A stretch of 64,000 nt of DNA, from contig JAALGZ010000007.1 in the NCBI GenBank assembly GCA_015227615.1, forward strand, positions 1,178,001 through 1,242,000, written 5' to 3'. The position numbers and the translations under genes are program-made. A model generated the notes under the pieces. That model worked only from the letters and a program-made list of their open reading frames with translations, was not told where the DNA came from and did no database searches. The stretch's first letter is position 1, and every line of letters starts with the position of its first letter. This DNA comes from Labyrinthula sp. Ha (lineage: Eukaryota; Sar; Bigyra; Labyrinthulida; Labyrinthulaceae). Positions 3,984 through 49,032 of the stretch are shown here, piece by piece.

Positions 3984-5809
3984 TTATGTAATCACAGTTG
4001 GTTCCTCTCTTCCGGTCAACGCCACAATGTTAGAGGTACTCAAAGCCAGATCCACCAAATCCTTGAGAGCTTCTGCAGTTTCCATATCCAAATTTTCTTG
4101 TTCATATTTTTCAAGATACATTCTAATTGTTGCTCCAACACTTCCGGTCCCTGAAAGTCTAAATACAAACCTTGACCCGCTTGTGAACACAAATCTCCAA
4201 CCTTGATTAGAAGAAATGCTGCCATCTACCGGATCATGATACTCAAAAATATTCACAGTAGCAAGTTCCCAGCCTGCTTTCAGCGTTTTGTTCATAGTTC
4301 CAGAGTCAAAATCTTTTACAAGCTTGTTAAGGTTTTCCACAAATTTATCTGCCTTCGCCTTTTCTACATTTTCATAGTCGTATCTTGAATAGTAGTTTCT
4401 TCCAAAAGTCGACCAATGTTCTCTTACAATCTCCTCAATCGTTTGATTTTTATGCGCCATAATTGATAACCAGCAAAGAACCGCCCAAAGTCCATCTTTC
4501 TCTCGAATGTGGTTACTTCCTGTTCCAAAACTTTCCTCTCCACATATAAGTGGGTTATACTTATCTGCTCCATTTTCTTGTGCTAACAAATGAAAAATAA
4601 AATTGGCATACCATCCATTAAGTTTCCAAAAAACTTCCATCCAGTTGGTACCTCAAACAAGTTGATACCATTTTTCTTTGCCACCAAATCAAGAGCTGCA
4701 GAGGTAGGCATACTTCTGGAAACAGCTTTCAGCCCACCATTATCTCTAAAAAAAGGAATACAAGCTTCTGCATTCGCAGCGAGAATCGCAACACTATCTG
4801 ATGGAGTAACGAAGAACTGTTTACCAAGAATCATATTTCTATCAGCATCCCCATCACAAGCAGCACCCATATCTGGTACAGAGTTTGGGTTTACACCTTC
4901 AAGTACTTTTCCCTTGGAATCCAAGCCCATGGCCTTGACCAAATCATGTGCGTATGTGAGATTTGGATCTGGATGCCCACCTCCAAAATCTTCAAGTGGC
5001 ACACAGTTTTGTAAGTTCTCTACAGCTAATCCTAGTTCTTTGTGAAGCACCCTAATGGCATAAGGCCCAGCAACACCGTGCATTCCATCAAACGAGATCT
5101 TAAAATCAGGATTCTATAAAATTGATAAAAATATCCAAAATACGTCTGCAAAGAACTTGCTGATTTTGGGAAAGTCAAACACTTCCTTCATTAGATCCGT
5201 GTATATATTTGTTGAGTCTATGACACTGATGCTGAAGGTATCTTCCAACCTTTTGTATTCCCCAATATTTGCAATATCAACATCATCAAAATCAGTTGTC
5301 AAATATTCAGTAAGCACTGTTGTATTTTCATAAATTTTAGAAGTCACTCCTTCTGGTGCAGGACCACCATTTGCTGAGTTATACTTGATTCCGCAATCAT
5401 TATCTGGTCCACCTGGATTATGACTGGCAGTTAAAATGAAACCACCAACTGGGTTAGACCTATAAATTAATTAAAACACAAGATCTTACGGATGACGTCT
5501 GATAATGGCGGAAACTGCGGGAGTAGACAACAGACCATTTTCTCCAACAATTACTCTGGAAACGCCATTTGCCGCACTCATTTTAAGGATAATTTGGATC
5601 ATTTCTTTGTTAAAATATCTTCCATCTCCTCCGAGAACAAGTGTAGCGTTTTGAAGCGTTTCATTGCCGACGGCGTTAAAAGTTGCTTGCACAAAGTTGT
5701 TGACATAATGTTCTTGCATAAATATCTTTGTCTGCTTTCGCAGTCCACTCGTTCCGGGTTTCTGCCCCTCAAATGGTTTGGTTTCAATTTTCTTAACAAA
5801 TTTTGACAT
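3984..5809 (-). CDS. Phosphoglucomutase (alpha-D-glucose type), four exons
   Basis: Exons 5809-5490, 5459-5144, 5113-4612 and 4582-3984 join into one 578-residue frame. It begins MSKFVKKIETKPFEGQKPGT, as in eukaryotic PGM1 proteins; the upstream in-frame codon at 5827 is GTG, so the ATG at 5809 is preferred. The phosphoserine loop is TASHNPGG (Ser119), the magnesium loop is DGDADR (Asp299, Asp301, Asp303), and the sugar-binding loop is GEESFGTGS. It interconverts glucose-1-phosphate and glucose-6-phosphate in the cytosol, linking glycolysis to storage and nucleotide-sugar synthesis. Three introns of 30, 30 and 29 nt restore the family sequence exactly at each junction. A TTTTGGGAAA element lies 84 bp upstream of the ATG. 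Confidence 0.95.
4583..4611 (-). other. PGM intron 3, 29 nt
   Basis: GTATGC...GTTAG. Removing it joins KFFGNLMD to AQENGADKYNPLICGEESFG, restoring the family order. Confidence 0.93.
5114..5143 (-). other. PGM intron 2, 30 nt
   Basis: GTATTT...TTATAG. Removing it joins KFFAD to NPDFKISFDGMHG, a conserved family segment. The intron length is divisible by three but it ends in an in-frame stop. Confidence 0.95.
5460..5489 (-). other. PGM intron 1, 30 nt
   Basis: GTAAGA...TTATAG. Removing it joins RRHP to SNPVGGF and the catalytic TASHNPGG loop in frame (phase 2). Confidence 0.95.
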
Positions 5810-5892
5810 TTTCCACTTTTTGATCACTGCCTTTTGTATCTGTTTTAGTATCTTGATTATTTCTGCTTTTAGTTAGTCTCAAACTGTACCTC

Positions 5893-5910
5893 ATTTTGGG
5901 AAATACTCGC
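5893..5910 (+). promoter_or_regulatory. TTTTGGG promoter element upstream of PGM
   Basis: ATTTTGGGAAATACTCGC lies 84-101 bp upstream of the PGM ATG. A very similar string (CTTTGGGAAATATTTGCG) lies in the FOXRED1/NIPA divergent promoter. Its function is inferred from recurrence only. Confidence 0.3.
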
Positions 5911-47320: not shown

Positions 47321-48436
47321 TCATGTTTCTGTAAGTAGTTCTTCTATTTTCTTTTCTTCTTCCAGCTCTATCTTGTTAAGGTCCAGTTTCTTGGTACAAC
47401 AACCCCATAAAATCCAGTAAATATAGAAGAAAACAACTAGAGCTAGTGCAGCTACATAGCACCAACCAGCAGTATTGCGACCAAAGAAGTACTCATAGCT
47501 TTCTTTTTCTGCAGGGAAAAACTGATATTCATCCCACCAATATCCAAAACTTTCATTCTCCTTTGGGCTCTCAATAAAAAGTTCTCCATACGCCCAAAAG
47601 CCATTTGCTGCAACCCAGAGTAAAAGGACAAAGTAATGAATCAGGTCAACTAGATGACTTTTGCTTGTCCAATATAAATAGATTGTATCTAGCATAAAAA
47701 GGCTGGTGAGTGCCAAACCTACCATGTATCCAACCTGATTCCCATATATCCAGAAACAATCTTTCAGAGCCCAGAAAAAAACATGTAAATTTTCGTACTC
47801 TAAGAAATCACGAAAGAAGAAAGGGAAGCGGAATCTAGGTAAAGTCTCGTTCTCCATTAGGCAGACTTCCATTACCCTATCTCGATCGAAATAAAACCAT
47901 GGTAGAATAAAAACAGAGAAAAAAAGCACAGCTACAGCAGCTAGAGAAAAACATTTCGCCTCTTCTGTCTTTTCGTCATAGAATAAATCTCCACCTCCAT
48001 ATTCATATTCTTCCATCAAATCGGGAACAAAAAACTCAGGAACTAATGATATGTTTTTATCATACATGTAGTACGGCCAAATTTCACCTATCATCCACCA
48101 ATAGTTTGAAAATACCCAGAGACTTAAGCCAACAACAACAACTGTCTCTGAAAAGATCCTCTTCCAAAGTGTCAGGATGATCATTAAAAACAAGAGAATA
48201 ACCGAAAGGGATCCAAAAATTATGCCTGTATAAAACCAATGCAACTGACTCCACGAAAAATCTTTTACTAACCAGAGGTAGATTTGAAGATATATCAGGC
48301 CGGTATAACTTTGAAACAACCAAGGAAAAGAAAACTTGAATACAGGGCCATCACTGAATGAATTTCCATATTTCGATTGACCGTATTTATATCGAAGGAT
48401 TCTTGCCTCTTTACTCAGCCCAGGCCATTGCACCAT
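47321..48436 (-). CDS. Trp-rich multi-pass membrane protein of unknown function
   Basis: This is a 371-residue protein with about eight hydrophobic segments, unusually rich in Trp, Tyr and Phe. Similar helices recur: LWVFSNYWWMIGEIWPYYMY, FWALKDCFWIYGNQVGYMVG and LWVAANGFWAYGELFIESP share a spaced W-x6-W-x2-GE/N pattern, suggesting internal duplication. Acidic loops (EEYEYGGG, FPAEKESYEYFFGR) lie between them and the tail is Glu/Lys-rich. I do not recognise a named family. It is convergent with DRC4, with stop codons in direct contact, and divergent from SNU13 over 151 bp. Being an intact long frame between two solid genes makes it certainly real. Confidence 0.82.
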   Translation of the reverse strand: MVQWPGLSKEARILRYKYGQSKYGNSFSDGPVFKFSFPWLFQSYTGLIYLQIYLWLVKDFSWSQLHWFYTGIIFGSLSVILLFLMIILTLWKRIFSETVVVVGLSLWVFSNYWWMIGEIWPYYMYDKNISLVPEFFVPDLMEEYEYGGGDLFYDEKTEEAKCFSLAAVAVLFFSVFILPWFYFDRDRVMEVCLMENETLPRFRFPFFFRDFLEYENLHVFFWALKDCFWIYGNQVGYMVGLALTSLFMLDTIYLYWTSKSHLVDLIHYFVLLLWVAANGFWAYGELFIESPKENESFGYWWDEYQFFPAEKESYEYFFGRNTAGWCYVAALALVVFFYIYWILWGCCTKKLDLNKIELEEEKKIEELLTET

Positions 48437-48587
48437 ACTGTTCTTACACTTGAGCTCGTTGAATTGGTTTTGATTTTTTTTCGTCCTTTACAATCTGTTG
48501 TCCGTTAAGGATAGTAGGGTTCCGATATGAGCCGATATACCGTTAGTTGTTATCGGTAGAGCGAGAAAGAAAATAGAACCATAGAAA
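48437..48587. promoter_or_regulatory. Shared promoter of the Trp-rich protein and SNU13
   Basis: 151 bp between divergent ATGs with a T-run near the left gene; no motif in common with the TTTTGGG set. Confidence 0.45.
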
Positions 48588-49032
48588 ATGGCAAAGGTAA
48601 AAAGAAGAGTTTTATTGATATCATAGGCAGTAAACCCAAAGGCGTACCCATTAGCAAATGATCAACTTACATCAGATCTAACCAGTGTTATCCAGCAAGC
48701 TAGTAATCTTAATCAATTGAGAAAAGGTGCCAACGAGGGTATTTGTTTTTATTTTCCTCTCATTCATAGCGACAAAGACTCTTAATAGAGGTATTAGCGA
48801 GTTAATTATTCTAGCTGCAGATGCAACACCTATAGAGATTCTTCTTCATCTTCCACTTGTCTGTGAAGATAAAAACGTTCCTTATGTTTTTATTCCAAGC
48901 AAGGATCAACTTGGCAGAGCCTGCGGTGTCTCAAGGTCTGTAATCGCAGCGTCAATTACATCAAACGAACAATCACCGATTGAAGCAAAACTAAAAAGCT
49001 TAAAAATTGAAATAGATAAGCTTGTTTTATAA
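48588..49032 (+). CDS. SNU13: SNU13/15.5K RNA-binding protein (L7Ae family), three exons
   Basis: Exons 48588-48596, 48627-48738 and 48770-49032 give 127 residues. The sequence MAKAVNPKAYPLANDQLT, then RKGANEATKTLNRGISELIILAADA, EILLHLPLVCEDKNVPYVF and LGRACGVSRSVIA is the canonical SNU13/NHP2L1 pattern, not NHP2 or ribosomal L7a. It binds kink-turns in U4 snRNA and box C/D snoRNAs, so it serves the spliceosome and rRNA methylation. The first exon has only three codons. Introns are 30 and 31 nt. The gene converges on the cysteine-repeat gene, 55 bp away. Confidence 0.96.
48597..48626 (+). other. SNU13 intron 1, 30 nt
   Basis: GTAAAA...TCATAG after the third codon; removal gives MAK-AVNPKAYPLA, matching the family start. 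Confidence 0.93.
48739..48769 (+). other. SNU13 intron 2, 31 nt
   Basis: GTATTT...TCATAG; removal restores GANEATKTLNRGIS across a split alanine codon. Confidence 0.96.

Follow-up and report, generated by a model that had tools for sequence, protein, structure and literature searches.

How a spliceosome could recognise introns of about 30 nt, and whether such segments are real introns at all, is the question raised by a 64,000-nt stretch of genomic DNA (contig JAALGZ010000007.1, positions 1,178,001 to 1,242,000; here called the window, meaning the whole stretch analysed), in which several protein-coding genes are interrupted by GT...TAG segments of 28–33 nt. We found that the eleven segments in the window are real introns. 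We consider it likely that they are major (U2-type) spliceosomal introns built to one near-fixed plan, and that the U6 small nuclear RNA (snRNA) has lost the C that pairs with intron position +5, leaving a donor site with little information beyond GTA. The window belongs to a eukaryotic assembly whose 153 contigs total 50.8 Mb. The organism is probably a relative of the marine slime nets: a TCP1-alpha tree, for which we chose 31 rows out of 120 listed matches, places the genome, among stramenopiles, on the side of the labyrinthulomycetes (Hondaea, Mucochytrium) and separates it from oomycetes, algae and animals (99/96); its branch in this single-gene tree is long, and the program flagged it as unsure.

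Short introns in the window and in the sampled loci

The eleven introns were tested by restoration of conserved protein sequence, by a gene finder of our own with controls, and by identity to annotated public proteins. They are located as follows.

5460..5489, minus strand: PGM intron 1, 30 nt, GTAAGA...TAG; PGM_PMM_I profile spans the junction; label of the identical protein P0001
5114..5143, minus strand: PGM intron 2, 30 nt, GTATTT...TAG; same profile and label; also found de novo with flat length
4583..4611, minus strand: PGM intron 3, 29 nt, GTATGC...TAG; same profile and label; also found de novo with flat length
19920..19949, minus strand: intron of a FOXRED1-like FAD oxidoreductase gene, 30 nt, GTACGC...TAG; full DAO profile matched across the junction
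23405..23433, minus strand: ALG11 intron 1, 29 nt, GTGGTT...TAG; secure acceptor, less certain donor
22656..22683, minus strand: ALG11 intron 2, 28 nt, GTACAT...TAG; source model P0241 has the same junction
31094..31123, minus strand: intron of a choice-of-anchor-B family gene, 30 nt, GTGTTT...TAG; TIGR04312 profile
40560..40592, minus strand: intron of an NTF2-like gene, 33 nt, GTATCT...TAG; NTF2 profile positions 1–115 of 116 span the junction
46249..46279, plus strand: DRC4/GAS8 intron, 31 nt, GTAATT...TAG; found de novo with flat length; alignment with a solved chain
48597..48626, plus strand: SNU13 intron 1, 30 nt, GTAAAA...TAG; lies after codon 3 and supplies the start codon
48739..48769, plus strand: SNU13 intron 2, 31 nt, GTATTT...TAG; homology across the junction

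Removal of each segment restores the reading frame, all eleven run from GT to TAG, and nine begin with GTA, as the earlier note had described them. Its further statement that conserved protein sequence fixes every one of them holds for nine; the donor of the first ALG11 intron is uncertain, and the first SNU13 intron rests mainly on the start codon. For ALG11, the ALG11_N profile scored 200.5 bits with the 29-nt form versus 192.5 bits with a 26-nt alternative, and the source model, which has no transcript support here, shares the acceptor of intron 1 and uses a different donor. Homology misses the first SNU13 intron because it follows the third codon and the homologous part of the protein begins at residue 4; the spliced product aligned with solved Snu13 chains over residues 4–126 (E 8e-51), crossing intron 2. 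Because the anchor-B intron contains no in-frame stop and keeps the frame as a multiple of three, it is visible by homology only, the TIGR04312 score being 322.6 bits after its removal versus 308.0 bits unspliced. Residues 4–374 of spliced DRC4 aligned across the junction with residues 4–381 of a solved DRC4 chain; the Pfam GAS domain is no test of this intron because it lies wholly downstream.

The gene finder was run over 224 kb in a flat pass, which admits any GT..AG segment of 12–400 nt without length or site preference. This pass yielded 17 introns of 28–33 nt, compared to 3, 3, 0, 2 and 2 for the control dinucleotide pairs (GA-AG, GT-AC, TG-GA, CA-AG and GT-TG). A self-trained pass over the same sequence yielded 23, compared to 8, 3, 0, 3 and 2, and we regard the flat pass as the cleaner test because self-training raises the controls too. 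With a penalty of −5, 15 introns of the first 184 kb fell into the 28–31 bin versus 0–4 for eight control pairs, and all nine introns of 24–36 nt from the first flat run over these 184 kb ended in TAG with no base before AG having been favoured. Raw GT..TAG spacing counts showed no peak because the introns are too sparse without coding context. Seven of the eleven window introns were recovered by the learned pass, the first ALG11, the anchor-B and both SNU13 introns being found by homology only.

The learned pass made 32 calls in all, of which 22 TAG introns of 28–33 nt were kept for the short set; of the other ten, a 94-nt call was kept as a longer intron. Among learned-pass calls of 24–36 nt, 22 of 24 ended in TAG; the other two (33 and 25 nt) end in AAG and are probably false. 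The calls that were not kept comprised 33 and 59 nt inside a retroelement (L010), 25 nt (L013), 17 nt (L015), 177 nt, 181 nt, 211 nt (a retroelement) and 304 nt bridging frame breaks in a dynamin-like gene; a 354-nt call (L010) that starts with a 28-nt intron-like unit also stayed outside the set. Among later calls, we did not accept those of 45, 70, 77, 205 and 264 nt; for those of 18, 35, 103 and 114 nt, reading the sequence led us to introns of 30, 29, 127 and 29 nt instead. For CCT-eta, the 30-nt intron gave 452.7 bits versus 444.6 for the 18-nt reading.

Our compiled set holds 39 short introns, namely 25 (22 from the learned pass and three by homology) and 14 more, drawn from the 224 kb plus small loci of the 50.8 Mb and covering 8 of the 153 contigs; locus L029 repeats L017 and was counted once. 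Besides the eleven window introns, 19 have other support: six from the label of CCT-alpha, eleven from a chaperonin profile match across the gene, one from an SH3 profile and one from a putative kinesin P-loop. The names given to chaperonin subunits other than alpha are likewise putative. Two members of the set, the anchor-B intron (31094–31123) and a 30-nt intron GTTTGT...TAG at L032, are stopless multiples of three, so that translation would run through them if they stayed in the mRNA; for the latter, which lies in CCT-beta, the score was 474.0 bits when it was removed versus 471.9 when kept. Three longer introns of 94 nt (SH3 gene), 127 nt (HSP60) and 141 nt (TatD-like gene) also end in TAG, and once they are removed the family profile spans each junction. 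The ultrashort introns to which the earlier note gave a genome-wide reach do occur elsewhere in the sample, but the introns of this genome are not exclusively ultrashort.

Spliced PGM from the window is identical to EukProt P0001, whose label gives five exons and a splice-site fraction of 1; because of this label, a fourth PGM intron probably lies in the untranslated leader. Likewise, spliced CCT-alpha (outside the window, L007) is identical to EukProt P0121, labelled with seven exons and a fraction of 1, and its six introns of 28–32 nt, which match that exon count, had been placed by the gene finder before EukProt was searched. The source labels thus give transcript support for nine introns in PGM and CCT-alpha, provided that the MAKER fields for exon count and splice-site fraction mean what we presume.

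Intron layout and an altered U6

The 39 short introns measure 28 (7), 29 (11), 30 (11), 31 (8), 32 (1) and 33 nt (1), with a mean of 29.7 and a standard deviation of 1.2 nt; twelve are multiples of three, with no depletion by length modulo 3. An A stands at −8 or −9 in 36 introns, preceded by 20–23 nt, compared to 54% of 1,979 GT..TAG segments of like length from the same 224 kb (real introns left in), and is likely to be the branch nucleotide. Upstream of it, T makes up 57%, compared to 34% for the comparison segments; the T content from +7 to −11 is 56%, and 26 introns contain a pyrimidine run of at least 6. Downstream of the likely branch A, there is no pyrimidine tract. The earlier note had seen little room for such a tract, which is correct downstream of the branch, but the upstream part is U-rich and a U2AF65-like gene is present (see below).

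At the donor, A occupies +3 in 29 of 39 introns, while +5 is A in 12, C in 5, G in 8 and T in 14. The share of G at +5 (20.5%) compares with a background of 14.7–16% (p 0.21 for enrichment), and a count of 8 or fewer would have p 6e-7 if the true share were 0.6 and p 0.008 if it were 0.4. The exon's last base is G in 25 cases, and the exon ends in AG in 13. According to passages of a two-class donor model, +5 G goes with U6 pairing and exon-end AG with U5 pairing (PMC11732430); with AG before only a third of the donors, we rejected a dominant U5-type class.

Genes for U1, U2, U4 and U6 were found in the assembly; U5 and U12 were not found there by searches that had no positive control. All three copies found of U1 retain AUACUUACCU, and all three of U2 retain GUAGUA. 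The only U6 gene found reads AUAUAGAGAAGAUUAGCAUGG, with AUAGAGA instead of ACAGAGA, a C-to-U change opposite intron position +5. Its core AUAGAGAAGAUUAGCAUGG is the assembly's only exact match to AGAGAAGATTAGCATGG, and a one-mismatch pattern search returned the same copy and one unrelated place. Viral contigs held no U6 core and prokaryote contigs two, one unrelated and one a canonical U6, which is presumably a eukaryotic stray; it scores 104.9 bits versus 59.9 bits for the AUAGAGA gene. The 5' end of U4 is changed as well: stem II of U4 with its own U6 reaches −22.9 kcal/mol versus −10.3 with canonical U6, and none of 500 shuffles of the U6 stretch attains this value (mean −9.2, standard deviation 2.7, best −21.5). 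Because U4 has changed in step, the AUAGAGA U6 looks functional, and it is most likely the U6 in use. We count it as a deviation of the machinery and not as another intron class.

The snRNA genes lie in a cluster (L018–L023, contigs C96 and C135) with three copies each of U1 and U2 on both strands of C96; in both U1 loci scanned, L021 and L023, U4 and U3 lie at most about 1.3 kb from U1. Among the proteins, a U2AF65-like product (L024) matches solved U2AF65 chains in both RRMs and the C-terminal domain, an SF1 gene is present with its helix-hairpin (SF1-HH), and genes for SNRNP27 and for a METTL16/RlmF-family protein with NPPF were found. The METTL16-family gene is thus present in a genome whose U6 is altered in the usual METTL16 target motif. 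The U2AF65-like protein also has a stretch, LFDVRPG, resembling the U2AF35-binding motif, in which human U2AF65 presumably has W in place of F. SNRNP27K was rejected as a cause of the donor change: its QYMNR methionine, which we take to be M141, is kept.

In the plan that we propose, an intron would begin with GTA, continue through a U-rich stretch to a branch A about 20–23 nt in, within a UUNAU-like context, and end 8–9 nt later with UAG. Donor and branch would be recognised by U1 with its unchanged 5' end and by U2 with its unchanged GUAGUA, together with SF1 and U2AF65, and intron size would itself contribute to recognition (intron definition). Since the segment after the branch is too short for a pyrimidine tract, we infer that the U-rich stretch before the branch serves U2AF65 instead, or that this protein helps mainly via SF1. 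The donor would carry little beyond GTA because the only U6 found has lost the C pairing with +5 G. We see nearly an even chance that this amounts to a natural rewiring of the donor, in which the C-to-U change of ACAGAGA left +5 G unselected and donors came to rest on GTA, often a preceding G, and a near-fixed length. A donor lacking +5 G is what one would expect of a U6 that has lost the C, and the exon ends do not clearly move towards the U5 class; since the set comprises 39 introns, the connection between U6 and donor is no more than suggestive.

The principal alternative accepts the introns as described and takes the U6 change as neutral and unrelated to the missing +5 G, which would come from weak-donor drift of short AU-rich introns. 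Weak donors need no U6 change because the Bigelowiella natans nucleomorph, in passages of PMC6461891, combines tiny introns that lack an identifiable 5' splice-site motif with an ACAGAGA U6; A at +5 and exon-end AG, neither of which is prominent here, also leave room for this account. However, the altered U6 base faces exactly +5, the U4 that pairs with it is altered as well, which suggests that this U6 is used, and, as excerpted from PMC10581693, ACAGA does not vary among 240 species of the yeast lineage and outgroups, with Cyanidioschyzon merolae named as changed at another base. Because ACAGA never changed in these 240 species, the changes in donor preference described there are not attributable to U6. 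We regard an unrelated U6 change as possible but doubtful.

The other explanations would do away with these introns or their class. Assembly indels, frameshifting or read-through segments might mimic introns, given that the frame of a dynamin gene in the window is broken at two A runs, each time by a single base, and that the set contains two stopless in-frame segments (anchor-B and L032, the latter gaining only 2.1 bits on removal); this is very improbable, since indels do not yield GT..TAG segments of 28–33 nt, the controls give few, and the PGM and CCT-alpha junctions are labelled as transcript-confirmed. Removal at the DNA level in another nucleus, as for the internal eliminated sequences of ciliates, which are likewise short, near-fixed in size and AT-rich, has hardly any likelihood against the GT...AG ends, the branch-A signal, most major spliceosome parts being encoded, and closest named relatives that are labyrinthulomycetes and not ciliates. 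Minor (U12-type) introns have a precedent in Blastocystis, which keeps them according to passages of PMC5608401, but CCTTAA and a GTATCC start each occur in 0 of 39 introns, nor did the search without positive control find U12; the set admits only GT starts, so that AT-AC introns would escape it. A U12-type identity is extremely unlikely.

Several observations weigh against major spliceosomal introns of one plan read with an altered U6. Compilation of the set required GT..AG and its main part was filtered on TAG, 24 of the 39 introns come from the window's own contig, and the gene finder is the sole basis for nine. The transcript support is that of the annotators' label. Three introns have no A at −8 or −9; A at +5, which could pair with the new U of U6, is not enriched (12 of 39); and there may be a weak preference for +5 G. 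U1 scores 66.2 bits versus a curated cut-off of 69.5, the U2AF65-like protein 249.6 versus 310.3 bits, and a canonical U6 may exist outside the assembly.

If major spliceosomal introns with a rewired donor are what this genome contains, this would be, as far as we know, the first case of a U6 blind to +5. In the study of splicing evolution, the way in which U6 and U1 divide donor choice between them is still unsettled, and the genome would make this question directly testable because the sole U6 found is changed opposite +5, +5 shows no clear preference and the 5' end of U1 is unchanged. The layout of 20–23 plus 8–9 nt would likewise be a clear example of splicing without a downstream pyrimidine tract though U2AF65-like and SF1 genes are kept. 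The genome may show splicing signals and splicing machinery changing together.

Other features of the window and sampled loci

The dynamin-like gene (27716–29700, minus strand) has its single-base frame breaks at A runs at about 29690 and 29388, by assembly indels or decay. A reverse-transcriptase element (35993–39359, minus strand), resembling a long interspersed nuclear element (LINE) by eye, has a similar copy at L010 306–3539 and broken frames. Large proteins that resemble one another and have a single membrane-like segment are encoded at 8631–10085 and 11552–13249 (minus strand) and at L013 1519–3497, perhaps a surface family; one of them contains a 36-bp tandem repeat at 12609–12708. A gene for a deoxyribodipyrimidine photolyase-related protein (DPRP; 23557–25125, plus strand) is a single open frame and was possibly transferred, because the family is mainly bacterial. 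Large gene-free stretches, as claimed earlier, are represented for example by 50129–57234, which is without an open reading frame of 120 codons, though this is no proof that genes are absent.

Comparison with known systems

Blastocystis is a relative within Bigyra. The narrow, near-minimal lengths described in the earlier note hold, and Blastocystis, one of the lineages that it gave as examples, is the closest parallel and not an unrelated one. According to passages of PMC5608401 and PMC3129679, Blastocystis introns have a mode of 30 bp in subtypes 1, 4 and 7 (54%, 36% and 21% of introns), GT-AG ends in 98.3% of subtype 1 introns, and longer representatives too; mean lengths are 33–50 bp. Because of this mode, the size class of about 30 nt was already known, and both genomes share a sharp mode near 30 nt. 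In the same excerpts, Blastocystis differs in its assemblies of 12.9–18.8 Mb and its U12 introns in subtypes 1 and 7, compared to 50.8 Mb, no U12 found in the search described and an altered U6 here.

As far as PMC12862383 is quoted here, Paramecium bursaria is alike in its short introns (median about 24 nt) and its U2-type spliceosome with all five snRNAs, but its introns are shorter, its lineage is another, and the key snRNA motifs are conserved. The B. natans nucleomorph differs in its introns of 18–23 nt, its relict genome and its archetypical ACAGAGA U6, in the passages of PMC6461891 considered. ACAGAGA is stated in a passage of PMC3510501 to be present in all known U6. A natural change within the U6 ACAGA box is shared with C. 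merolae, where, in the text drawn from PMC10581693, the central A has become U, opposite +4, whereas C has become U here, opposite +5. Ultrashort introns are therefore a known kind, while neither the AUAGAGA U6 nor the introns of this genome were found described in the open-licence literature searched.

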